Under the pieces are notes generated by a model, which saw nothing but the letters and a program-made list of their open reading frames with translations, ran no database searches and had not been told where the DNA came from. DNA of 64,000 bases from Alkalimarinus sediminis (GTDB lineage Bacteria > Pseudomonadota > Gammaproteobacteria > Pseudomonadales > Oleiphilaceae), in the NCBI RefSeq assembly GCF_026427595.1, contig NZ_CP101527.1, positions 1,373,001 through 1,437,000 of the forward strand, given 5' to 3'. The position numbers and the translations under genes were made by a program. The number at the start of each line of letters is the position of its first letter. Within the stretch, counting starts at the first letter, position 1. Below, piece after piece: positions 37,118-48,917 of the stretch.

Positions 37118-38296
37118 ATGTCAAGTCATGCTGAGCGGATGTTGGTCATCGATAAAGACGATAGTTGTCGGCAGTATCTGTCGCGCGGTCTTCTAGCTAT
37201 CGGCTATTACGTTGTATCTGTAAGTTCAATAAAAGAAGCTCTCGTTAGTATTGCAAATGGCCGCCCTGATCTAATTTTTGGTGACCTTTCAACTGACGAA
37301 ATCAGCATGCTATCCAAGCTTAAAGACCCTGATTTTCCTCCTTCACCCGTCGTTGCATTCTCACATACCGAAGAAGCCGCTGATGTCGTAACGGCTTTAA
37401 GGGCGGGCGCTTCAGACTTTATCATCAAGCCTATTAATGACTTCTCTCTGGTAGAAGAGGTGATTAAACGAATTTTTGAGCAGATACGAGTTGTAAGGCT
37501 CAATCAGCGTTACCGTGTTGAGCTAGAAGATGCCAACCGAGAGCTTAAAGCAGGTATAGCCGAACTTAAAGCAGACCAGAAAGCGGGTTTGAAGGTTCAG
37601 ATGAAGATGCTGCCAGAGCGAGAAAAAAAGCTCAAAGGCATAGAGTGCGACTATTTTATCAAACCTTCGCTCTTTCTGAGTGGCGACTTTTTAGATTATT
37701 TTAAAATCGATAGCAAACGTGCGATCTTTTATATTGCTGATGTATCTGGGCATGGTGCTTCTTCTGCGTTTGTAACAGTATTATTGAAGAATTTATCTAA
37801 TCGCCTGCTAAGGAACTTTAAAAGAGGTTCTACGGACGAGATCTTGTACCCAGATCGAATGCTTCATCGCATCAACCGAGAACTACTCGAAACCGAGTTT
37901 GGCAAACACTTAACAATGTTTGTCGGGATACTTGAAAACGATACCAACCGATTGACCTACTCGGTCGGGGCGCACTTTCCCATGCCCGTGTTAATGACCG
38001 ATGACGGTGTTGAGTATCTTGAGGGGAGTGGAATGCCTGTTGGGTTATTTGAAGATCCCACCTATCGGGTATACGATAGGGTCTTGCCAAAAAAGTTTGC
38101 ACTATGGTTGTTTTCAGATGGGATACTCGAAGTGATTAACGCCAGTAGCCTGGCAGACAAAGAGCAGCAGTTATTAAGTTTGGTAGAAGATAGCGATAAT
38201 AGTATTGAAAAGTTGTCGAACGCATTGCAGCTTAATCGTATGGAAGAGTTGCCAGACGATATTGCTATTTTGACTGTTTCCGGTGTAGGTAATTAA
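37118..38296 (+). CDS. Response regulator with PP2C/SpoIIE phosphatase domain, HsbR-like
   Basis: 392 residues. The receiver domain spans about 8-120, with Asp pair DKDD and LIFGDLSTD as phospho-acceptor loop. A coiled-coil linker (ELEDANRELKAGIAELKADQ) leads to a SpoIIE-type PP2C domain at about 190-390, with metal motifs SGDFLDYFKID, FYIADVSGHG, GAHFPMP and LFSDGILEV. Such proteins dephosphorylate an anti-sigma antagonist. The STAS gene three bases downstream is the evident partner. The pair recalls HsbR/HsbA of pseudomonads. The protein is shorter than HsbR and lacks the extra C-terminal kinase-like domain, and no HptB gene is adjacent. Confidence 0.82.
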   Translation: MSSHAERMLVIDKDDSCRQYLSRGLLAIGYYVVSVSSIKEALVSIANGRPDLIFGDLSTDEISMLSKLKDPDFPPSPVVAFSHTEEAADVVTALRAGASDFIIKPINDFSLVEEVIKRIFEQIRVVRLNQRYRVELEDANRELKAGIAELKADQKAGLKVQMKMLPEREKKLKGIECDYFIKPSLFLSGDFLDYFKIDSKRAIFYIADVSGHGASSAFVTVLLKNLSNRLLRNFKRGSTDEILYPDRMLHRINRELLETEFGKHLTMFVGILENDTNRLTYSVGAHFPMPVLMTDDGVEYLEGSGMPVGLFEDPTYRVYDRVLPKKFALWLFSDGILEVINASSLADKEQQLLSLVEDSDNSIEKLSNALQLNRMEELPDDIAILTVSGVGN

Positions 38297-38298
38297 AG

Positions 38299-38811
38299 AT
38301 GGCTAGTTATAAGATTTTGCAGGCAGAGCAGCAGGGCATTTATGTGCTTAAGTTTGTTGGTGAAATTCGCCTGTATTTATGTTCTACCTTAGATATTATT
38401 ATCGACTCAATGGCCGCTAACCCGGAGTTTAAAACTGTCGTAATAGACCTTACAGAGACGACGGTAATCGATAGTACAACCCTTGGCTTGCTGGCAAAGG
38501 TGGCGGTATTGGCGCGTAAAAAGAGCTCTTACCTTCCAACGATTATATCGACTAACCCCGATGTGACCCGCATCATCCAAACGATGGGGTTTGGTGAGAT
38601 ATTTATTATTATGGCCGAACCAGCGGTTGAGTTATCTGAACTCGAAGAAATACCGATACTAAAAGCAACTGAGCAAGAGGTGAGGGAGAAAGTACTTGAT
38701 GCCCACCTTACGTTAATGAACCTTAACGACTCGAACCGCAAAGAGTTTAAAGATCTTGTTCAGGCTTTAGAGTGTGAAAATAAATTAGAGCAATCCGCGC
38801 TAAGTCATTGA
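38299..38811 (+). CDS. STAS-domain anti-sigma factor antagonist, HsbA-like
   Basis: 170 residues. STAS fold in residues 1-110: GIYVLKFVGEIRLYLCSTLD, TVVIDLTETTVIDSTTLGLLAKV. The phosphorylatable serine is expected in the IDSTTLG segment (Ser-Thr). Residues 110-170 are an acidic, helical extension not needed for the fold. It starts three bases after the phosphatase stop, so the two are translationally coupled. The family sequesters an anti-sigma factor or, for HsbA, links to a diguanylate cyclase and motility/biofilm choice. Confidence 0.83.
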   Translation: MASYKILQAEQQGIYVLKFVGEIRLYLCSTLDIIIDSMAANPEFKTVVIDLTETTVIDSTTLGLLAKVAVLARKKSSYLPTIISTNPDVTRIIQTMGFGEIFIIMAEPAVELSELEEIPILKATEQEVREKVLDAHLTLMNLNDSNRKEFKDLVQALECENKLEQSALSH

Positions 38812-40337: not shown

Positions 40338-40802
40338 TTGGACGTCTACATTATGCGTCACGGTGAAGCGTCATTTAATGCCGATAGTGATATTAATCGG
40401 GAGTTGACGGATCGTGGTCGAAAAGAAGTGCTAAGTACCATCAACGCGCTTGTGGATGGTGCTTGTGTAATAGATGAAGTTTGGTCTAGCCCATATTTAA
40501 GAGCCAAGCAAACCGCTCAAATAGCCGTTAAAGAGCTGGGTATACCATTAAATATTCAGCCTCGTTTAACGCCTGACTACAACCCTGCAAAAGTCACCGA
40601 TTGGTTGTATCAGCTAAATGATTCAATTGATTCAGTACTGATTACCTCTCATATGCCGCTAGTGGGTAAGCTTGTGAGTTTAATGGTAGAGGGGGATCAG
40701 CATCATCAAATACCCTTTGCTACAGGCATGGCCGTTCACCTTCACGCTGATAGCCCTTTTGATGGCTGTTTTACCCTTAAAAAGACCTTTTCTATTCGCT
40801 AA
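40338..40802 (+). CDS. sixA: Phosphohistidine phosphatase SixA
   Basis: 154 residues from a TTG start, chosen because AGGAGG lies five bases upstream and MDVYIMRHGEAS begins at the family's first strand. His8 in RHGEAS is the phospho-acceptor, followed by Arg in SSPYLRAKQTA and the second His in TSHMPLVG. It removes phosphate from His in phosphorelay HPt domains. Length fits SixA. Confidence 0.93.
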   Translation: MDVYIMRHGEASFNADSDINRELTDRGRKEVLSTINALVDGACVIDEVWSSPYLRAKQTAQIAVKELGIPLNIQPRLTPDYNPAKVTDWLYQLNDSIDSVLITSHMPLVGKLVSLMVEGDQHHQIPFATGMAVHLHADSPFDGCFTLKKTFSIR

Positions 40803-41177
40803 GTTAAGCAGTGTCAGCCTTCTTTACCCCTTCATAGTCCTGTTATTAGGCTAATAACCCTATATTAATAATGGACTTAAACTGTTTATATTGAATTTAA
40901 CCGGTAATTCTTAGGTATTAGCTGTCAGCTTTAATTACTCTTTGCAAGGCACACTGTAGACTTTTTTGCTCTGCTAACCTTTTAGGGCCGTTAAAATAGC
41001 CATTTTAGATGGGTTGGCACACATTTAGCTGACTTAGGGCACAGAATAATATTAAAGGCAGTATGACTGGCGCTGTTAGGTTCAGCTAATCATCATCAAT
41101 GATGAGGGTAACCAGTTAAGTGTGAGCAGTATTTTTTATTTTGTAATAAAAAACACAAGCACTATAAGGATATTACT
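40803..41177. other. Intergenic region before the sigma-54 activator
   Basis: No gene seen. Contains a 17-base inverted repeat GTTATTA-GGC-TAATAAC at 40842-40858 soon after sixA, a -24/-12 candidate at 41015-41030, and an A/T hairpin TTTTTTATT/AATAAAAAA near 41132-41153 just before the activator start. Confidence 0.5.
41015..41030 (+). promoter_or_regulatory. Candidate sigma-54 (-24/-12) promoter
   Basis: TGGCAC-ACATT-TAGCT. GG and GC are exactly ten bases apart, and only one base of the TTGCW box differs. It lies 147 bases before the VpsR-like activator start, so it could serve autoregulation. Confidence 0.5.
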
Positions 41178-42548
41178 ATGCGCTCACTGATCTATCTCGA
41201 TATTTCTAGTTCAGGGCATGATTCTCACTCACAGGATGGAATCGAAGAAGGCCAGTTACCTAATTGGACTATTACAAGAACCTCTTCAATTCAAGCTACT
41301 GAAAAGCTGTTAGAAAACAATACAATTTCTATCTGTGTTGTATGCATTAATCAAAATCTTATCGTTAAAAACAGGGCTCAGTTTGAGGCTGTTGTAAACG
41401 GGTTCCCATCTGTAGAGTGGTTAGCCATTTCCCCCTCGTCGCTACTAAAACAATCGAGTGTTTGTCAGTTCATTAAAAATAATTTTTACGATTATCACGT
41501 GTTTCCGCTTGATTATAAGCGACTTAACACATCCCTAGGTCATGCGTTTGGCATGGCAAACCTCATTGTATCTACGGTCAGCGAGATTAAAGAGCAGGTA
41601 ACACCTCCGACTATGATTGGGCAAAGCGTCCAATTAAAAAGGGTAACCGCACTTATCGCTAAAATAGCCCCTGTTGATGCCTCGGTATTAATTACTGGTG
41701 AAAGTGGCACCGGTAAAGAGCTGGTCGCCCGTGCCATTCATAGTTACTCTGGTCGCGCGGATAAGCCTTTTGTAGCAATAAATTGCGGGGCTATTCCGGA
41801 AAATTTGATTCAAAGTGAGTTATTTGGTCATGAAAAAGGTGCGTTTACCGGTGCCAATCAAAAAAGAATTGGGCGTCTTGAGGCGGCCAATGGGGGGACT
41901 CTGTTTCTTGACGAAATAGGTGACTTGCCGTTCAAGCTACAGGTAAACCTATTGAGGTGTCTGCAGGAAGGTATTATTGAAAGAGTAGGCGGAGGGCAAA
42001 AGATTAACCTTGACCTGAGAGTAATCGCAGCGACTAATGTAGATTTAGAGCAAGCCATCACCGAGGGGTTATTTAGAGAGGATCTTTATTACCGCATCAA
42101 CGTGTTTAATATCGCTATGCCGCCTTTAAGAGAGCGGGGCGCTGACGCAAAGTTGTTGGCTCATCACTACTTAACAAAGTGGAGCAGTAACGGCGCTAAT
42201 AAGCCCATCACATTTAGTAAAAAGTCAGAGCAGATAATCACAAGTTATGGCTGGCCTGGAAATATTCGAGAACTAACCAACCGAGTTAAGCGAGCGGTTC
42301 TGCTGTGCGATTCGTCTCAAATAACGCCCGAAGATCTTGGTTTTTCAGAAGAGTTAGATAGCTCACAACAGGTGATGACCCTTGCTGACGCGAGAGAAGA
42401 GGCTGATAAATCAGTGATTGCACAAAGTTTAGCGTGTACCGATCACAACATAACAGCGGCCTCAAAGCTGCTTGATATATCTCGACTTTCACTCTACAGG
42501 CTGATGAGCAAATATGCACTAGACTCCAAACAGCCGAATACCCATTAA
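41178..42548 (+). CDS. VpsR-like sigma-54-dependent transcriptional activator
   Basis: 456 residues. The N-terminal domain (1-130) resembles a receiver but lacks a clear phospho-acceptor Asp. The run VEWLAISPSSLL...VCQFIKNNFYDYHVFP and LNTSLGHAFGM is close to the N-terminus of VpsR, the c-di-GMP-responsive matrix activator. The AAA+ domain has Walker A GESGTGKE near 173-180, an intact GAFTGA loop (VpsR itself deviates here) and LFLDEIGDLP. The C-terminal Fis HTH is NITAASKLLDISRLSLYRL. An ATAAGGA-type Shine-Dalgarno precedes the start. Its position next to the amyloid-like genes makes these its likely targets. Confidence 0.85.
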   Translation: MRSLIYLDISSSGHDSHSQDGIEEGQLPNWTITRTSSIQATEKLLENNTISICVVCINQNLIVKNRAQFEAVVNGFPSVEWLAISPSSLLKQSSVCQFIKNNFYDYHVFPLDYKRLNTSLGHAFGMANLIVSTVSEIKEQVTPPTMIGQSVQLKRVTALIAKIAPVDASVLITGESGTGKELVARAIHSYSGRADKPFVAINCGAIPENLIQSELFGHEKGAFTGANQKRIGRLEAANGGTLFLDEIGDLPFKLQVNLLRCLQEGIIERVGGGQKINLDLRVIAATNVDLEQAITEGLFREDLYYRINVFNIAMPPLRERGADAKLLAHHYLTKWSSNGANKPITFSKKSEQIITSYGWPGNIRELTNRVKRAVLLCDSSQITPEDLGFSEELDSSQQVMTLADAREEADKSVIAQSLACTDHNITAASKLLDISRLSLYRLMSKYALDSKQPNTH

Positions 42549-42639
42549 GGTAAAACACTGTAAGCGCTTAGGCAGCCAGTCTGTTGTTGGCTGATATAAA
42601 TATAAAAATTCATGCTAAAACAAGACTGGGAGCAAAGCC

Positions 42640-43722
42640 ATGTCAATAGAACGGATAGGGGGGATACTTCTGCTAGGGCTATTTGGTTTTTCTAGTTCCG
42701 TGCAGAGTAATGAGGAGGTTGACAGTGCTAGTCAGCCAGCTCCGGCAGTAAAGAGCAAAGGTAGCGGTGAAGGAGAGGGGCGGCGTTTAAATGAGATAGT
42801 AACGGTGTTTGAAGATAGGGGGATTCTAACCTCTGAAGGGGTTTTTGTAATTGAACCCTCATTCTCTTATGCCCACTCGACATCTACTGTGGTAGCCATT
42901 GAAGGTTTTACGGTAATTCCTTCGTTAATCGTTGGGCTAATCAATATTAGTCAGGCTCAGCGGGATATTTTTAATGCTTCGTTATCGGTGAGGTATGGCA
43001 TATCTAGCTATCTAGAGGTGGGTGTTAAAGTACCGTATGTACAAATTGATGAGAGTATACGTGAGAGGGAGGTTTTAAAAGGCACCCCTATAGATGTGAT
43101 CAATGATGCTTCTGGTAGTGGCCTGGGTGATGTTGAACTCTCAATTGGGTACCAGTTAAATGATGGTTTAGACGGCTACCCGTACTTTGTTTCGAACCTA
43201 AGAATAAAGTCTGACACCGGTAAAAGCCCGTTTGAAACCTCACGAAGGCAGCTCAAAAACGAAGATGGTGATGTAATCGGGGTTGTGTTTGATGAGAAAG
43301 CAACTGGCTCTGGCTTCTGGTCTGTCCAACCTGGAATTACCGCTATGTACCCATCAGACCCTGCGGTTTTGTACGGGAGTGTAAGCTATCTCTGGAATTT
43401 AGAAGACGACAAAGGTGTAGAAAACGGAGGCGTTATTGACCCCGGAGATGCCATTGGCTTTAGTTTTGGTATCGGTTTTTCAGTCAACGAAAAAACCTCA
43501 TTCAGTCTTGGATATGATCACAATATTATTTTGAATACTAAAATAGAAAACTCGCCTGATTTGAGCGATTCAACGTTTGATAGATTCCATTCTGGCTCGT
43601 TCTTAGTGGGTATATCACAAGCAGTCGCTAAATCGACCAGTGTGAATTTGTCGTTAAGCATTGGTGTAACAGAGTATGCACCTGATATGCAGTTAACACT
43701 CCGTGCGCCATTCGCAATTTAA
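42640..43722 (+). CDS. Outer-membrane beta-barrel, FapF/transporter-like
   Basis: 360 residues. Signal peptide 1-23, then a charged Pro/Lys/Gly linker (residues 24-50). The rest alternates in the manner of beta strands: VFEDRGILTSEGVFVIEPSFSYAHS, LSVRYGISSYLEVGVKVPYV, GSGLGDVELSIGYQL, GFWSVQPGITAMYPSDPAVLYG, FSFGIGFSVNEKTSFSLGYDHN, and an aromatic-ending last strand LRAPFAI. This wording is that of the outer-membrane transporter family that includes FapF, the channel for Pseudomonas functional amyloid. It follows the activator gene. The convergent neighbours encode a C39 peptidase and candidate subunits, as expected for a Fap-like system. Confidence 0.72.
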   Translation: MSIERIGGILLLGLFGFSSSVQSNEEVDSASQPAPAVKSKGSGEGEGRRLNEIVTVFEDRGILTSEGVFVIEPSFSYAHSTSTVVAIEGFTVIPSLIVGLINISQAQRDIFNASLSVRYGISSYLEVGVKVPYVQIDESIREREVLKGTPIDVINDASGSGLGDVELSIGYQLNDGLDGYPYFVSNLRIKSDTGKSPFETSRRQLKNEDGDVIGVVFDEKATGSGFWSVQPGITAMYPSDPAVLYGSVSYLWNLEDDKGVENGGVIDPGDAIGFSFGIGFSVNEKTSFSLGYDHNIILNTKIENSPDLSDSTFDRFHSGSFLVGISQAVAKSTSVNLSLSIGVTEYAPDMQLTLRAPFAI

Positions 43723-43793
43723 ATGATCGATGTTATCTTTTTGCTATATAAGTGGCATACGTTGTATAGCCTGCACTATTAGTAAAGAAAAAA

Positions 43794-43820
43794 GCCCTAT
43801 GAGAGTTCATAGGGCTTTTT
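43794..43820. terminator. Bidirectional terminator between barrel gene and amyloid-like operon
   Basis: Stem GCCCTAT (43794-43800) / ATAGGGC (43809-43815), 8-base loop, flanked by A-run before and TTTTT after. It serves both convergent transcripts. Confidence 0.9.
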
Positions 43821-43867
43821 CAGATAGTTTGCTTGCTCCTTATGCTCGCTAAGATGTTTAGCTACCT

Positions 43868-44629
43868 TTAGCGTAGTGAGTTTATAATTTGAGGGAGTAC
43901 CAGAGTATTAACGCTTCTACTTCTGTACTGTCCTAAGTTATCTATTTTTATGTTGAGCATCTGAAAACTTTGTATCAGCGAACTGTCTTGAGTGTTCATT
44001 ACTACACTGGTCAGGGTTGTTGGTAGTGAAGTGGAGGTGGAAGATGCTGTAGAGGGGGCAGAAGTTGATGAGTGTGTGCTACTTAGCATGCTTAATAGTG
44101 CATCGGTATAATCGTCGTCACTCAAGTTTTGTTTGGTGGTTAAGGATGTTGACTCGTGTTGCTCTGTTGTGTGAGGTAGTGGCTGTTTAAGTGTGTCGGC
44201 TACCGTGTTAATACTGCCTGTTGCTGCATCCTGCTCCGCTTGAGTGCTTTCACCATCGTACTCTTTTTTATTAAGCTTTTCTCTCAGTGTGTTCATGGTT
44301 AGCGCTAAATCCTTAACGTTATTGTTATTTCGTTTAGCTAAATTTAGTTCAGGGATATAAAACCGAGCTTTTGCTTCTAACCTGCCGTTAACGACCACTA
44401 CTTTCTCAAAGCCGATACTAATCTTAAACCCACTCTTATCGATAAACCCGCCTCGTTGTTGGTCCAACTGAGATCGAGTTAATGCAATGCTATTTTTGAA
44501 TATAGTAGACACGCTGCTTTCAGAAACAATCTGGCTGCTAATGTAAGGCTGTTGATTGACCTCCGCCATGCAGTTGGCCGAAATAAATACGCTATAAAGT
44601 ATTAATTGAGACTTTGCTGAGTTAAACAT
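43868..44629 (-). CDS. Secreted accessory protein of the amyloid-like locus, ELxxxRGG-type motif
   Basis: 253 residues, family not firmly recognised. Residues 1-22 are a Sec-type signal (ending CMA-EV). SQLDQQRGGF at residues 53-62 is followed by FKISIGFEKVVVVNGRLEAKARFYIPEL, a block I associate with proteins encoded beside C39 peptidases in gammaproteobacteria. Leu55 and Gly60-Gly61 have the spacing of a double-glycine leader site. A Ser/Thr-rich low-complexity region (about 180-225) precedes a C-terminus of small hydrophobics. It starts nine bases after the C39 peptidase stop, last gene of the leftward operon. May correspond in role to FapA or FapE, but this is not shown by the sequence. 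Confidence 0.6.
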   Translation of the reverse strand: MFNSAKSQLILYSVFISANCMAEVNQQPYISSQIVSESSVSTIFKNSIALTRSQLDQQRGGFIDKSGFKISIGFEKVVVVNGRLEAKARFYIPELNLAKRNNNNVKDLALTMNTLREKLNKKEYDGESTQAEQDAATGSINTVADTLKQPLPHTTEQHESTSLTTKQNLSDDDYTDALLSMLSSTHSSTSAPSTASSTSTSLPTTLTSVVMNTQDSSLIQSFQMLNIKIDNLGQYRSRSVNTLVLPQIINSLR

Positions 44630-44638
44630 GACGCTCTC

Positions 44639-45352
44639 CTAAAAATCTAATGGACCTGGCAAAGTCATTGAGAACTGGGCAAGGCCTTTGTTTGTGAGCG
44701 CAGTTCCAAAAGGTGCTTTGGCTCTAACGTTCCATTCTTCTGCTTTGTTATAGTTAGCTCGACCTAAGACAGCATGACTTTTGATAATAAATACCAATCC
44801 GTTCCAACCTTTTTCAAATGCCTCTCTTTCAATTACTCGTGAACCTTGAGCCGGGTCTGCGACCAGTACCTCTGTAGGCGTAACGCCTTTAACAATGACG
44901 AAGTGACTGTAACCGTTAGTATTAATCAGGGTGATCGCAGGTATTTTCGCTTTATTCTGTATTTTATCGAGCCCTATTTGGTAGCCATCAGAGCGATATC
45001 CTCGTTTTGTTAGAAAGTCTTTCATATCTAACATTGAAAACCCTTCACGATTGATTTTCTCTTGATCACCGTCTGCATACATCGCTTCAAAAATGGTCTT
45101 TTCGTCAATTGGGTCATCGTAGTGATAGGTCAATAAGCTCGCTAACGCTGCGCTGCCACAGCTAAAGTCATACTCTTGCTTGATGACAGATTTAAACCGA
45201 GCTTCTTTGTAACTGGTAACTTTTAGTTGATGAAAACTCCCCACACCAGGGATAGATACTGTGCCGGCAGAGAGTATTGAAGAGATCTGTAAGGCTGCTA
45301 TAAGTGAGCAGGTTCTGACAATTAAACGATGATTGTGATTGACGGTGTTCAT
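44639..45352 (-). CDS. C39-family cysteine peptidase, FapD-like
   Basis: 237 residues. A hydrophobic N-terminal segment (about 10-29) exports the protein. The C39 catalytic set is complete: Cys65 in EYDFSCGSAALASLL (with the upstream Gln59 as oxyanion residue), His150 in GYSHFVIVKG and Asp166 in VADPAQG. C39 enzymes cleave after double-glycine-type leaders. No ABC-transporter domains are fused, as in FapD of Pseudomonas amyloid loci. Two of the other secreted products in this operon carry an ELxxxRG(G/R) motif that could be its cleavage site. Confidence 0.85.
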   Translation of the reverse strand: MNTVNHNHRLIVRTCSLIAALQISSILSAGTVSIPGVGSFHQLKVTSYKEARFKSVIKQEYDFSCGSAALASLLTYHYDDPIDEKTIFEAMYADGDQEKINREGFSMLDMKDFLTKRGYRSDGYQIGLDKIQNKAKIPAITLINTNGYSHFVIVKGVTPTEVLVADPAQGSRVIEREAFEKGWNGLVFIIKSHAVLGRANYNKAEEWNVRAKAPFGTALTNKGLAQFSMTLPGPLDF

Positions 45353-45450
45353 CTTGTACTCTGCCTTGATTGTTTGGTTGTTAGCGCTTGCTATAAAGAG
45401 CTTGTTCTATGATCGTTAGACCGGTTACTCGCTTAGCCGCGTAACGAATG

Positions 45451-45489
45451 CTTCCCCTTTTTTGGTAACTAAGACCAATCAAGGGGAAG
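45451..45489 (-). promoter_or_regulatory. Strong intercistronic hairpin after the 120-residue subunit gene
   Basis: Outer 9-bp stem CTTCCCCTT (45451-45459) / AAGGGGAAG (45481-45489) with an inner 5-bp stem TTGGT (45462-45466) / ACCAA (45474-45478). It begins three bases past the stop codon. No U-tract follows on the minus strand, so stabilisation or attenuation of the mRNA is more likely than full termination. Confidence 0.75.
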
Positions 45490-45492
45490 TAG

Positions 45493-45855
45493 CTATTGGT
45501 TGATTAGTACATTAACCATCGTTGTATCTTGTATGATGACTTGGTTGCCTGTGTTTTGTATGACCGTTGCAATACCCGACATACCAGAAAATGCATTGCC
45601 AGAAATCGTGTTGCTTCCTGTTCCTTCTGAGTGAAGTGTATTCTGTTGCATAAGAGCGTTCTGATCTGAATCATTAGTTTGAAAAACTAAATCGAGGTCT
45701 GCTCGGCCTCTGTGTGATTCTAGCTCTTGGTCTGAAACCAGTGCGTTAGATAATCCAAGTTCGTCGTCTAATACATCTGCAGAGAGTGGTGGTGTAACGC
45801 TAACACTCAATAGCAGTAGGGTTATTAATGTACTTGACCTTATTAAAGCGCTCAT
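45493..45855 (-). CDS. Small secreted amyloid-like subunit with RG motif
   Basis: 120 residues. GGGAG precedes the start by seven bases. Signal peptide about 1-26 (LSA-DV). DQELESHRGRADL (residues 42-54) has Leu45 and Arg49-Gly50 at the spacing of the motif in the 43868 gene product. The C-terminal 45 residues read SNTISGNAFSG...GIATVIQNTGNQVIIQ...MVNVLIN, alternating small, Asn/Gln and branched residues like a curlin/Fap strand-turn unit. The same NxISG...VxQNTG motif ends the 389-residue repeat protein encoded upstream. Interpreted as nucleator or minor subunit (FapB-like) by position and size; not demonstrated. Confidence 0.62.
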   Translation of the reverse strand: MSALIRSSTLITLLLLSVSVTPPLSADVLDDELGLSNALVSDQELESHRGRADLDLVFQTNDSDQNALMQQNTLHSEGTGSNTISGNAFSGMSGIATVIQNTGNQVIIQDTTMVNVLINQ

Positions 45856-45896
45856 TCTTTTTCTCCCAATTAGTGTCTTCTAGTAAAACCAGAAGA

Positions 45897-45921
45897 AAGA
45901 GACTAGAAAATCTAGTCTCTT
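45897..45921 (-). promoter_or_regulatory. Intercistronic hairpin after the repeat-protein gene
   Basis: Perfect 11-bp stem AAGAGACTAGA (45897-45907) / TCTAGTCTCTT (45911-45921) with a 3-base loop, starting ten bases after the stop codon of the 389-residue repeat protein. TCTTCTGG follows on the minus strand. Partial terminator or 3'-end stabiliser. Confidence 0.75.
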
Positions 45922-45931
45922 CTAAAGGGTG

Positions 45932-47101
45932 TTATTCGAATGATAGGTTCGACATTACGTTAATCGAATTCTGGTTAGAGGCCATCGCTCCGGTGTTTTG
46001 GTTAACTATTGCTACACCAGTAGTGCTAGTTCCGCCAGAAATATTGTTGTCAGCTTGGTATCTTACTGTTCCGCTTTCACCGGAATTGTCCAGTGTCAGC
46101 GCATTGCCTGATACCGTAGCACTTAGCGCCGTTGTATTGGCAGCAACATCGAGGCTAATGTCACCAATAGTGACGCTTTGATCGTTCGTGGTTGTGGTAG
46201 TAGTTGTAGTAGTCGTAACTTGACTGTTATCAGTCATGCTGTTATCTGAGTTATCGCTGTTGTCTGAATTATCAGTCATGCGATTATCAGAATTATCGCT
46301 GTTATCTGAGTTGTCAGTCATGCGATTATCCGAATTGTCACTGTTGTTGGAATTGTCGCTGTTATTGGAATTGTCGCTGTTATTGGAATTGTCGCTGTGG
46401 TTTGAATTGTCACTGTGGTTGCTGCTATCGTCGTTGTCTTGGAACGAATCATTAACCGCTAGGTCAACATCGTTGTTAGTGCTGCTATTGCTATTGTTGG
46501 TGTTATCGCTGTTATTCGAATTGTCACTGTTGTTGGAGTTGTCGCTATGATTCGAATTGTCACTGTTATTACTGGCATCGTCATTATCTTGGAATGAATC
46601 ACTTACCGCTAAATCAACAGCTGAGTTAGTGCTGTTATCACTGTTATTAGTGTTGTCACTATTATTGGTGTTGTCACTATTGTTGGTGTTGTCGGTGTTG
46701 TCCTGGAATGAGTCAGCCACATCGACTGCAAGGTCGTTACTAGCATCTGTATTAGTGCTGTTATCACTGTTATTAGTGTTGTCACTATTATTGGTATTGT
46801 CAGAGTTGTCCTGGAATGAGTCAGCCACATCAACTGCTAGGTCGTTACTAGAATCAGAGGTGGAGCTGTTATCACTGTTGTTGCTGTTATCGCTATTATT
46901 GGTGTTGTTCGTATTGTCCTGAAACGAATCTGCTACACCAAGGTCAACGTCAGTCGTGCTATTGTCTAGCAAGTTGTCGTCATCCATAGCGATTGATTGA
47001 TCGTTTGCAGCGTTATTGTGGTCTTGTTCAGCCCAGCCCTGACTTGAAAGACCCAAACTTAACACAATGGCGGAGGCTAGTAGTGTTTTTTGAAATTTCA
47101 T
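45932..47101 (-). CDS. Low-complexity Asn/Ser/Asp repeat protein, candidate major amyloid subunit
   Basis: 389 residues from ATG 47101, which has AGGAATAAGG upstream; ATG 47116 overlaps that ribosome site. Signal peptide about 1-25 (SQGWAEQ). Residues 45-290 are almost entirely NSDN-type repeats with Thr/His variants. Five DSFQDN markers, each usually preceded by DLAV, set a superperiod of roughly 36-45 residues. RMTDNSDNSDNSDN units and a run of ten Thr follow. The last 80 residues differ: VSGNALTLDNSGESG, then NNISGG...GVAIVNQNTGAMASNQ, sharing NxISG...VxQNTG with the 120-residue subunit. FapC-like major fibre subunit or matrix spacer protein is the best reading; related repeats are known to be poorly conserved, so homology may not be detectable. 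Confidence 0.65.
   Translation of the reverse strand: MKFQKTLLASAIVLSLGLSSQGWAEQDHNNAANDQSIAMDDDNLLDNSTTDVDLGVADSFQDNTNNTNNSDNSNNSDNSSTSDSSNDLAVDVADSFQDNSDNTNNSDNTNNSDNSTNTDASNDLAVDVADSFQDNTDNTNNSDNTNNSDNTNNSDNSTNSAVDLAVSDSFQDNDDASNNSDNSNHSDNSNNSDNSNNSDNTNNSNSSTNNDVDLAVNDSFQDNDDSSNHSDNSNHSDNSNNSDNSNNSDNSNNSDNSDNRMTDNSDNSDNSDNRMTDNSDNSDNSDNSMTDNSQVTTTTTTTTTTNDQSVTIGDISLDVAANTTALSATVSGNALTLDNSGESGTVRYQADNNISGGTSTTGVAIVNQNTGAMASNQNSINVMSNLSFE
46236..46960. repeat. Coding microsatellite-like repeat tract
   Basis: Short-period (6-, 12- and 18-base) repeats of the NSDN codons, for example repeated GAATTGTCGCTGTTATTG on the plus strand, with a superperiod of about 110-135 bases set by the DSFQDN codons. 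Such tracts can gain or lose units. Open frames read on the plus strand here (Leu/Ser-rich) are artefacts. Confidence 0.85.
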
Positions 47102-47215
47102 GACCTTATTCCTCATATCTTATAAAAATAATTTAGTTTTATTATCTTTTTGATATCCACGGATCTTAGTATTGAAAATACAGCCGACCATCGCGATATA
47201 TACCTCGAGGTGTAG

Positions 47216-47231
47216 TACATTAAGCGTGCCA
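47216..47231 (-). promoter_or_regulatory. Candidate sigma-54 (-24/-12) promoter of the amyloid-like operon
   Basis: Minus strand TGGCACG-CTTA-ATGTA. The -24 half is a perfect TGGCACG; the -12 half keeps T and A but has GT for the usual GC. It lies about 115 bases before the start of the repeat-protein gene, in the correct orientation. Confidence 0.45.
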
Positions 47232-47407
47232 TTATTGACCTACGAGACTTAACTAGCTGTTTTATAGATGAAAAATAAGCGGCAGTGTTGGCTAAGGCGA
47301 ATATGCTTTTTACGCTATTGTTACTTAGATGAAACACCAAACGTATCGAGAATCAAACAGGGGGGAGGTAAATAACAATATAAACAGGGGGTTAGGATGA
47401 AAAGGTC

Positions 47408-47431
47408 GACTGTTAACCTAGGTTAACAGTC
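47408..47431. promoter_or_regulatory. Perfect 24-bp palindrome
   Basis: Arms GACTGTTAACCT / AGGTTAACAGTC without spacer. It is 22 bases beyond the stop of the aminotransferase gene and about 300 bases upstream of the repeat-protein start. It may be a terminator stem or a dimeric-regulator operator; no T-run follows on the minus strand beyond CCTTTTC. Confidence 0.6.
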
Positions 47432-47452
47432 ATAAAAGTGTAGGGTAAACGT

Positions 47453-48574
47453 TTATTTAATTAAGCTTTTTAGTATCCTAATAGCATTATCGATAACAGA
47501 TTTGGGGGTATAAAAGTGAGGAGAAAATCTTACCCCACCCCCTCTACAAGCACAGATCACCTTTGCCTGCATAAGCTGAGAATAGAGGGTTTCAGAGTTG
47601 ATGTCGGCAACTTTGAAGGTAACAATACCTCCGCGCTCTGCTTTGCTAGTTGGGGATAATATCTCCACGTTGGGTAGACTGCTCAACTGTTCGATTAGGT
47701 AGCTAATATTGCTTTGTAGCTGTTGCTCTATTTTATCTATACCTATCTCTTCAATTAGCGAAAGGCTTGCATTGAGAGCATGAATACCAAGCATGTTGGG
47801 GCTGCCGCACTCAAAACGTGTTGCATCGGGAGCTACCTCCCATGTGCTGCGAGTGTAGTCGCCTCGATGTTTAACCATGTGCCAACCATATTGCGAAAGT
47901 GAGATCTTATCCCGCACGTCTGGCTTTACATAAAGTAGTGCTAAACCTTCTGGCCCCATCATCCATTTATGACCGTCAGCAACCACGAAGTCTGCGTGAT
48001 TATGTTCAACGTTAAAGGGGAGCGCTCCCAAACTCTGAATGGCATCAATACAGTACAGTATGTTGCTCTCGCGGCAAACCTTACCCAGTCGATCAATATC
48101 TATCTTGAGGCCTGATGCGTATTGAACTGAGCTGATAGAGACTAATTTGGTTTGGGGTGTGATCTCTTTGGCAATAGCTTCTACAGCATTACCTTTACTA
48201 ATATCAGCAATTTTTAAGTTAACGCCTTTGTTGGCTAAAGACTCCCAAACAATTCTATTAGATGGGAACTCCTGATTACTAATAATGATCTCATCACCTG
48301 GAAACCACTCTAAACCATAAGCAATAATCGACAGTGCTTCGGACGTGCTTTTTGATAGTGCAATGTCAGACGGAGAGGCGGCTCCTATAAGATTTGAGAG
48401 TCTTTTTCTAAGAGCTTCTTCAATCTTAATCCACTCAAGGTAGTGGCTTGCTCCAAATGTGGTGTTTTCTTCTGCAAACTTGGAAACTGCTAACTGAGCA
48501 CGTTTGGGCCACGGTGAGACTGCGGCATGATTTAAGTAGCTAATGTGCTCATGAAGAGGAAATTCTGCATTCAT
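47453..48574 (-). CDS. Class V aminotransferase-fold PLP enzyme
   Basis: 373 residues from ATG 48574; a TTG 14 codons earlier is possible but is not supported by a Shine-Dalgarno. YLNHAAVSPWP opens the fold, LSKSTSEALSIIAYGL binds the cofactor phosphate, YCIDAIQSLGALPFNV contains the Asp-Ala-x-Gln that contacts the pyridine, and VADGHKWMMGPEGLALL carries the Schiff-base Lys. The C-terminus has CRGGGVRFSPHFY. The family includes cysteine desulfurases, isopenicillin-N epimerase-like enzymes and others. The SufS/IscS cysteine loop is absent, so the substrate remains open. Stands alone. Confidence 0.85.
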   Translation of the reverse strand: MNAEFPLHEHISYLNHAAVSPWPKRAQLAVSKFAEENTTFGASHYLEWIKIEEALRKRLSNLIGAASPSDIALSKSTSEALSIIAYGLEWFPGDEIIISNQEFPSNRIVWESLANKGVNLKIADISKGNAVEAIAKEITPQTKLVSISSVQYASGLKIDIDRLGKVCRESNILYCIDAIQSLGALPFNVEHNHADFVVADGHKWMMGPEGLALLYVKPDVRDKISLSQYGWHMVKHRGDYTRSTWEVAPDATRFECGSPNMLGIHALNASLSLIEEIGIDKIEQQLQSNISYLIEQLSSLPNVEILSPTSKAERGGIVTFKVADINSETLYSQLMQAKVICACRGGGVRFSPHFYTPKSVIDNAIRILKSLIK

Positions 48575-48917
48575 GGTTGCGCTATCCTGTTGTGGAGGAG
48601 TATTCCGATTTAACAAATACTTTACTCGTAAAAACTAATGGCATGATTAGGTGATTGTAATAGCCGACTGATAGTAATAGTAGCCCGTTGGAAATATTAG
48701 ACTGATAGTAATAGTAGGTCGATAGTATTTAGTGGGTCGATAGTATTTAGTGGGTCGATAGTATTTAGTAGATAGACATTACCAGTAGGTAGACAGTTCT
48801 AATAGACTAATTGTCCCCCAGTATAAGCCTGACCAATAATAGGCCGCAGCAGAATGTCTAGCGTGTTATAATCTACTCATTATTATTTTTAGTTTCTATT
48901 AGTGAGTTTTAAACGCG
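48575..48917. repeat. Gap with 34-bp duplication and 18-bp tandem repeats
   Basis: GACTGATAGTAATAGTAG occurs at 48666-48683 and again at 48700-48717, 34 bases apart. Three 18-base units GGTCGATAGTATTTAGTG then fill 48717-48770 (the last ends in TA). A TATAAT at 48867-48872 may be the -10 box of the radical SAM gene. No gene seen. Confidence 0.85.

Follow-up and report, generated by a model that had tools for sequence, protein, structure and literature searches.

A candidate fibre-secretion locus of a Fap sister branch in Alkalimarinus sediminis, with a double-glycine leader and a predicted cut site

Organization of the locus

The 64,000-nucleotide stretch of DNA analysed here (the window) comprises positions 1373001–1437000 of the single-contig, 4.23-Mb genome of Alkalimarinus sediminis. 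It contains six genes that, judged from sequence, probably make up a full set of parts for fibre secretion, belonging to a sister branch of the Pseudomonas Fap amyloid system; this reading includes leader cleavage, export, fibre formation and sigma-54 control as proposed steps. An activator and a FapF-like outer-membrane barrel are encoded on the plus strand. Convergent with them, the minus strand encodes a major-subunit candidate of 394 residues (s394), a small secreted protein (s120), a C39 peptidase and a FapE-like protein of 253 residues. Coordinates and supporting matches are collected in Table 1.

An earlier note on this DNA had named five parts: an activator of the VpsR-like sigma-54 kind, a barrel resembling FapF, a C39 peptidase resembling FapD, and two secreted candidate subunits that share a C-terminal motif. 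All of these assignments held up in our searches (Table 1), and the shared motif reads NTISG...VIQNTG in s120 and NNISG...VNQNTG in s394. The count of five DSFQDN markers in an NSDN-repeat protein was exact: s394 contains five DSFQDN and 21 NSDN motifs, compared with a mean of 0.7 NSDN in shuffles of its own residues and with any DSFQDN in 1 of 2000 shuffles. The "logic of Pseudomonas fap" seen in the locus was likewise borne out by homology to FapF, FapD and FapE, weakly to the FapB/FapC repeat, and by activator relatives beside canonical fap loci. The sixth gene, coding for the FapE-like protein, had been overlooked; the end points given then, 41015 and 47231, coincide with two -24/-12-like sites.

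Table 1. Features of the locus, numbered from the first nucleotide of the window.
Feature	Positions	Strand	Evidence
-24/-12 (sigma-54) promoter-like site TGGCACACATTTAGCT, upstream of activator gene	41015..41030	+	10/12 scored consensus positions, GG and GC core
VpsR/BrfA-type sigma-54 enhancer-binding activator, 456 residues, GAFTGA loop intact	41178..42548	+	PF00158 6e-73; PF20161 VpsR 2.6e-17
FapF-like outer-membrane barrel, 360 residues	42640..43722	+	PDB 5o67 FapF 2.2e-33, residues 55-358
FapE-like secreted protein, 253 residues, double-glycine leader	43868..44629	-	hhalign 95%, P 2.3e-8 against canonical FapE
Double-glycine leader LTRSQLDQQRGG, residues 50-61, F at +1; predicted C39 cut after G61	44447..44482	-	pattern in 82/87 FapE-like proteins
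FapD-like C39 cysteine peptidase, 237 residues; Cys65, His150 and Asp166 in conserved motifs	44639..45352	-	PF03412 2.6e-21; NCBIfam FapD 2.3e-42
s120: small FapB-like secreted protein, one C-terminal repeat	45493..45855	-	74 sequences aligned; one repeat in 88/88 rows
s120 leader-like motif VSDQELESHRGR, residues 40-51, GR in place of GG	45703..45738	-	L....G[RKG] in 74/86 distinct s120 proteins
s394: NSDN-rich, strongly acidic major-subunit candidate, 394 residues, five DSFQDN, one C-terminal repeat	45932..47116	-	homologous C-termini in 62/89 loci
s394 C-terminal repeat-like module (NNISGG...VNQNTG...SINVMSNLSFE)	45935..46048	-	hhalign against s120 C-termini 92.8%, P 4.1e-7
-24/-12-like site TGGCACGCTTAATGTA, 115 bases upstream of s394 start; -12 element GT, not GC	47216..47231	-	10/12 positions

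Conservation of the gene set

The comparison set of 90 window-type loci consists of the window, two loci from the same family (L043, L044), five plasmid records (L047–L051), 79 contigs (L052–L130) and L178–L180 from Pseudomonadota. The 79 contigs were found with an s120 pattern, the best 80 of 98 confirmed relatives being kept; they contain s120 by construction, the other genes of the locus lying outside that search. Loci duplicating genomes already counted were excluded from the counts. A contig scan seeded with the peptidase alone confirmed no relative; the scan with the s120 profile did find relatives.

The FapE-like gene stands beside the peptidase gene in 87 of the 90 loci, and the s120, C39 and FapE-like genes are kept together in the same orientation. 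The order s120–C39–FapE-like with a convergent barrel and activator is exact in 55 loci, the window included; in the remaining 35 the set is rearranged, duplicated, incomplete or interrupted by contig ends. The convergent barrel that had been reported is therefore present, but it is not peculiar to this locus. Together with the low-complexity subunit it typifies a widespread sister branch, whose subunits are free to differ in their middle part.

Marinobacter accounts for 51 of the 90 loci. Other hosts include Nitrosomonas, Paraglaciecola, Colwellia, Neptunomonas, Salinimonas, Luteimonas, Methylocaldum, Methyloversatilis, Oryzomonas, a Geobacteraceae metagenome-assembled genome (MAG) and three MAGs labelled Deltaproteobacteria, and the plasmids come from Cupriavidus, Photobacterium, Vibrio, Croceicoccus and Polymorphobacter. 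The branch thus extends over gamma- and betaproteobacteria, deltaproteobacterial MAGs, Geobacteraceae and two alphaproteobacterial plasmids. Among 398 evenly sampled Pseudomonadota genomes, 13 gave s120 profile matches and 8 had a FapD above its cut-off; nine further FapD-like loci that we fetched (205–284 bits) have three-repeat subunits as well. These numbers put the frequencies of the two branches within one order of magnitude of each other. One genome (G087) holds both a three-repeat fap locus and a window-type locus.

Relationship of the peptidase and the barrel to Fap and Fil

The peptidase matched the NCBIfam FapD model with 144.8 bits (cut-off 330) and the FilB model with 105 bits (cut-off 475). 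The barrel reached 151.3 bits with FapF (3.3e-44, cut-off 700) and 66 bits with FilC (cut-off 630). The check proposed in the earlier note, a profile search with FapF and FapD, thus gave matches far below the cut-offs, and its expectation that both proteins fall inside the FapF and FapD clades was not borne out, as they lie outside the canonical groups in quick maximum-likelihood trees. The peptidases separated into three groups: canonical FapD, with 18 rows and a support of 97–98; FilB-like, with 9 rows and a support of 99; and window-type, with 32 rows and a support of 90 when no outgroup was included. When this tree was rooted with a very distant C39 domain of an ATP-binding cassette (ABC) transporter, the window-type label required two changes and formed no resolved clade. 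In the barrel tree the window-type (28 rows) and canonical (17 rows) groups had supports of 92 and 97, against a single long FilC row. The trees do not settle which two of the canonical, FilB-like and window-type groups are nearest. Because both proteins stand outside the canonical groups and score far below the cut-offs, the name sister system suits the locus better than Fap in the strict sense.

A rival reading takes the locus for a fapBCDEF operon of the ordinary kind, lacking fapA, diverged and missed by standard searches. In its favour, loss of fapA, separation of fapF and a Vibrio FapB with one repeat are all on record (PMC3792158), and the activator is shared with canonical fap loci. 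We consider this explanation very unlikely, since the 32 peptidases and 28 barrels separate from 18 and 17 canonical rows (with a window-type support of just 90–92), genome G087 contains both kinds of locus, the FapB, FapC and FapE models fail to match, and the repeat number is one instead of three.

The scores with FilB and FilC also raise the question of a putative pilus locus of the Acinetobacter Fil type. The FapD and FapF models outscore them (145 and 151 compared with 105 and 66 bits), and the nine FilB-like peptidases form a group of their own. Moreover, the genome has a separate Fil-like locus at 1694–1696 kb, in a region (1692–1697 kb; L003:5260–10080) that encodes a C39 peptidase 37% identical to that of the window, a related barrel, a FadL-like protein and a protein of 426 residues. 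A Fil-type identity, which we regard as extremely improbable, was rejected on these grounds. A leader was not found among the ORFs (open reading frames) of L003 with the one pattern used. Peptidases similar to the Fil-like one occur in many of the family members searched.

The repeat module of the secreted subunits

A rule that requires the C-terminal motif picked out a major subunit in 62 of the 89 loci to which it was applied. Its middle part is S/D/N-, G/A- or T-rich: N+S+D makes up at least 45% in 44 of the 62 proteins and G at least 25% in four. A low-complexity subunit of the s394 kind, which had been taken as novel, is therefore usual among the relatives, mainly in Marinobacter (35/37 S/D/N-rich; elsewhere 9/25), and S/D/N-rich stretches also occur in canonical FapC, e.g. 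in L161 and L171. None of s394, s120 and the 253-residue protein had a Pfam match above the cut-off.

A window-type repeat profile detected a single C-terminal module in 62 of 62 major subunits and 88 of 88 s120 proteins, and in 13 of 87 FapE-like proteins at the same threshold (domain E 0.05). The modules of the major subunit and s120 are homologous (Table 1). In the 17 canonical comparison loci, the canonical-repeat profile found mostly three repeats in FapB and FapC, and one in the FapE of 15 loci; three imperfect repeats are described as almost universal for FapB and FapC (PMC12392863, section 2.1). Aligned with the canonical repeat by hhalign, the modules gave P 0.002 (14%) for the major subunit and P 0.0008 (25%) for s120. 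Their scores were 16.0 and 18.0, and 100 column shuffles reached no more than 13.1 and 15.7. We read this weak similarity as distant homology, which by itself does not prove a shared fold. Against whole FapB, the s120 segment ISGNAFSGMSGIATVIQNTGN aligned with IQGDSFSHGNGVLGVNQSAGA (57%, P 1.1e-4). s120 is also homologous to the FapE-like proteins, over the N-terminus, leader and C-terminus (97.8%, P 7e-13). No FapA model matched any of the six genes; s120 was considered as a FapA relative and rejected (3% in the comparison with the FapA profile). Searches of the PDB with s120 and its profile returned chance matches alone.

The same export machine could instead deliver a product that is not amyloid. 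In that case s394 would be a soluble or gel-forming acidic matrix or adhesin protein, and its C-terminal module a tag for export or anchoring recognized by the barrel. A single degenerate repeat at the extreme C-terminus (62/62 and 88/88), a middle part free to differ between loci, and an AlphaFold model of s120 with little beyond two helices and almost no β-structure would all fit such a role. The Gly/Asn/Gln pattern of the module, however, stays in register with that of the Fap repeat, and s120 consists of little more than module and leader, as a nucleator could. This counter-argument has a weak point: COG4313 uptake channels (PMC6173800) are FapF relatives that do not belong to fibre systems. 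On balance we regard a non-amyloid product as unlikely and prefer the fibre reading.

The double-glycine leader and the predicted cleavage site

The FapE-like proteins are homologous to canonical FapE (54 sequences aligned with 13), and the alignment runs through the leader region, with LSDxELAxLRGGF of the former opposite LxDxELAxxRGRY of the latter. The majority residues of the FapE-like leader are L-12, S-11 (or T), D-10, E-8, L-7, R-3, G-2, G-1 and F+1. They agree with the published consensus of C39 leaders, LSXXELXXIXGG (PMC6181422), at every named position except -4; there, 32 of 82 have L. Of 87 distinct FapE-like proteins, 82 contain [LMIFV]xxxRGG; the five misses have RAG (L118, L126, L129), KGG (L088) or the motif in a neighbouring ORF fragment (L119). 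Among 2853 other ORFs of the same loci, [LMIFV]xxxRGG[FYIL] occurs in 20, with 0.6 expected per shuffled set. Outside Marinobacter the RGG leader is found in 33 of 37 FapE-like proteins, or 36 if RAG is counted. At the aligned place canonical FapE has [LMIFV]xxxRG[RK][YF] in 15 of 17 loci (L177 has TGKY and L175 HGKF), and in the alignment of the 13 canonical sequences the R is conserved to at least 90% and the G invariant.

A related motif precedes the corresponding site of s120. Its consensus LSxDQLxxSGRQG is recognizable in 74 of 86 proteins (26 of 37 rows outside Marinobacter), with R at position -1 in 64, G in 6 and K in 4. Only 2 of 62 major subunits contain a leader-like motif. AlphaFold places a helix directly before the site, with low confidence, at residues 52–59 of the FapE-like protein and 42–49 of s120. 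Both the FapE-like protein and the peptidase have N-termini that look signal-like by eye, so that the former appears to be Sec-exported in addition to carrying a double-glycine leader. The motifs around the catalytic Cys, His and Asp of the peptidase are kept in 80, 87 and 81 of 89 sequences (regular expression).

We therefore predict that the FapE-like protein is the substrate of the FapD-type peptidase and is cut after RGG (G61), with the canonical counterpart located between RG[RK] and [YF]. In Pseudomonas the active-site Cys of FapD is needed for secretion, and FapE is the one protein that lacked N-terminal peptides (PMC5557850, PMC6173800). The same sources state the substrate of FapD to be undetermined and the Fap proteins to be without canonical C39 sequences; a later review names FapE and the periplasmic part of FapF as what FapD "is thought to" process (PMC12822426). 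In the literature on FapD/FapE, C39 peptidases and double-glycine leaders we found no published statement of this cut site, subscription papers and supplements being outside the scope of that search.

Could the C39 protein act without cutting FapE? It might be a non-cleaving chaperone, or cut the barrel or another partner alone, with RGG as a conserved binding motif. Precedents are the non-proteolytic C39-like domains (PMC6173800, PMC5135000) and the FapF linker, suggested as the target in Pseudomonas (PMC5557850); canonical FapE, moreover, has RG[RK] and not GG. This alternative seems rather improbable to us given the conserved catalytic motifs, the fit of the leader to the C39 consensus at -12, -11, -8, -7, -2 and -1, and the block of secretion by the Cys variant in Pseudomonas (PMC5557850). 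A broader reading would be a widespread second lineage of Fap-type amyloid secretion that makes its fibres of subunits with a single repeat, whose periplasmic C39 enzyme genuinely cleaves a Sec-exported FapE-type protein at a double glycine, and whose cut site corresponds to a FapD cut between RG[RK] and [YF] in canonical Fap. For this reading we see the chances as evenly balanced.

A block resembling a double-glycine leader (LSDxDFxxVxSG-like, with SGG in L168) is also present in canonical FapA, the first gene of the operon (L161–L168, L171). It contrasts with published peptides, which show no processing of FapA.

Activator and promoter sites

The activator is 46.6–49.3% identical over 369–379 residues to the activators beside eight canonical fap loci with FapD above the cut-off. 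Its loop sequence is GAFTGA. Upstream of the major subunit, a site with GG/GC core and at least 10 of 12 matches was found in 42 of 61 distinct regions, with 0.60 expected from mononucleotide shuffles; 23 of these 42 strong sites lie 108–120 bases from the ORF start used. In P. fluorescens PF07 an adjacent, reverse-oriented brfA together with RpoN controls fap via a -24/-12 promoter (PMC9207406), and BrfA is reported to sense cyclic di-GMP (PMC13101488).

Proposed mechanism

Based on these results we propose the following mechanism. The secreted components would enter the periplasm by the Sec pathway, as suggested by their signal-like N-termini (judged by eye). There, the C39 peptidase would cut after RGG (residue 61), freeing the FapE-like protein of its short double-glycine leader, and would probably also trim s120 after RGR (residue 51). 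This processing may license export via the FapF-like barrel. Outside the cell, s394, s120 and perhaps also the FapE-like protein would stack through their single C-terminal repeats into a cross-β fibre. FapB-type proteins are nucleators. The acidic, disordered NSDN stretch of s394 could cover the fibre surface as a hydrated coat within the biofilm. The VpsR/BrfA-type activator, together with sigma-54, would switch on the subunit operon, plausibly in response to cyclic di-GMP.

A number of observations speak against parts of this proposal. The model match of the window barrel starts at residue 52, compared with residues 80–169 in 17 canonical-type barrels. Judged by its length, the N-terminus is too short for the canonical coiled coil and linker, and the periplasmic coiled coil of FapF is essential in Pseudomonas (PMC5557850). 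Long barrel N-termini are present in other window-type loci, e.g. L043 and L102. The window barrel also has no PTG motif (DTG and ATG instead). Of the barrels compared, 81 of 84 of the window type and all 17 of the canonical type contain at least one PTG. Because of the short N-terminus and the missing PTG, export may differ in detail.

Concerning the subunits, s394, s120 and the 253-residue protein had no match to NCBIfam FapB, FapC or FapE at E 1; as a positive control, FapA, FapB, FapC and FapE of L161 and FapC of L162 scored above the cut-offs. At the threshold given above, the canonical-repeat profile matched three proteins, all s120, among 62 major subunits, 88 s120 and 87 FapE-like proteins. 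The AlphaFold models of s120 and the FapE-like protein are poor (mean predicted local distance difference test scores of 56 and 63) and show no β-solenoid, and a Foldseek search with the FapE-like model gave no PDB match at E <=0.001.

With respect to processing, the figure of 82/87 leaders is somewhat favoured, as the recruiting profile covered the leader region. Known double-glycine sites do not end in R as the s120 leader does, and the pattern is absent from 12 of 86 s120 proteins. In Pseudomonas, FapA to FapD gave peptides throughout, i.e. no processing; the stretch missing from FapE comprises about 70 residues, longer than a leader cut alone explains, and the FapF linker may be processed as well (PMC5557850).

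As for sigma-54 control, the loops of the related activators are mostly GAFTHA, GAFTSA, GSFTHA or similar. Plain GAFTGA occurs in 11 of 76 window-type rows and in the window; 8 loops of the 76 were not resolved, and 10 rows repeat genomes counted under another locus. Thirty-six of the 42 strong promoter sites come from Marinobacter (36 of 37 such regions; elsewhere 6 of 24) and so are not independent. The 42 do not include the window, whose site at -115 has 10 of 12 matches but GT at -12. Marinobacter loci have strong -24/-12 sites despite loops other than GAFTGA in most window-type rows.

Comparison with known systems

The locus shares with Pseudomonas Fap (fapABCDEF) the FapF-type barrel, the C39 peptidase, repeat-bearing secreted subunits, an adjacent VpsR/BrfA-type activator and a FapE-type protein whose leader-like block occupies the matching position. 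A -24/-12 promoter, published for P. fluorescens PF07, may be a further common feature, the window's site with GT at -12 being a weaker candidate. The locus differs in having one repeat per subunit instead of three, no recognized FapA, a barrel convergent with the operon and without room for the coiled coil, an RGG leader in place of RG[RK], separate tree groups and scores below the NCBIfam cut-offs. Co-localized fapD/fapF homologues outside the Fap census have been noted in five additional phyla (PMC6173800). Their peptidase and barrel genes are close together, as here, and some of our loci may be among them; the cited part of that account does not describe subunits, leaders or the order of genes. 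Some of this branch may thus already have been observed, though not described.

The Fil putative pilus system (NCBIfam FilB/FilC) also has a secreted C39 peptidase beside a related barrel, but its peptidases form a separate group, its neighbours are the FadL-like and 426-residue proteins, and the single pattern applied to L003 found no such leader. With bacteriocin and microcin export by peptidase-containing ABC transporters (PCAT) the locus has the LSXXELXXIXGG leader and the C39 catalytic motifs in common; the window peptidase, however, is free-standing and looks exported, its predicted substrate has a signal-like N-terminus, and none of the six genes encodes an ABC transporter. Like Vibrio VpsR and Pseudomonas BrfA, the latter adjoining fap, the activator combines a VpsR domain with a sigma-54 AAA+ domain, although many window-type relatives have GAFTHA or GAFTSA in place of GAFTGA.

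A full double-glycine leader in the sister branch, aligned with the canonical RG[RK], offers a precise target for mutagenesis and predicts which N-terminus the mature protein should have. Fap has been pictured as a "fixed" three-repeat system (PMC12822426, section headed 7). Searches based on the FapB/FapC repeat may miss systems with one degenerate repeat, as judged with our own repeat profile and not the published one. The subunits are natural examples of one small amyloid-like module carrying very different low-complexity stretches, which is relevant to biofilm ecology and materials.

Genomic neighbourhood and occurrence in the genus

The six genes lie between a SixA-like gene (40338–40802, named from its sequence) and an aminotransferase-like gene (47453–48616). 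In four of four congeneric genomes these two genes are 35–157 bases apart, and the s120 query that matches the A. sediminis genome matched none of the four. The best peptidase matches there are 36–37% identical and of the Fil-like kind. With the flanks adjacent and the locus absent in the four congeners, the 6.6 kb (window 40803–47452) were either gained here or lost there. We looked for a foreign base composition and saw none, the G+C fraction being 0.40–0.45 both inside and outside the island.

At 37118–38811 of the window, 2.4 kb upstream of the locus, a response-regulator/phosphatase-like gene is followed by a STAS-like gene; from their sequences they may be a partner-switching pair. Among the related loci, that of Marinobacter changyiensis (L045:7283–7916, L121) appears degraded, with shortened s120, C39 and barrel frames. 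In Marinobacter sp. ATCH36 (L042:6988–12370, L081) the module of major subunit, s120, C39 and FapE-like genes is duplicated in tandem; the s120, C39 and FapE-like copies look identical, and the major subunits have 303 and 297 residues.

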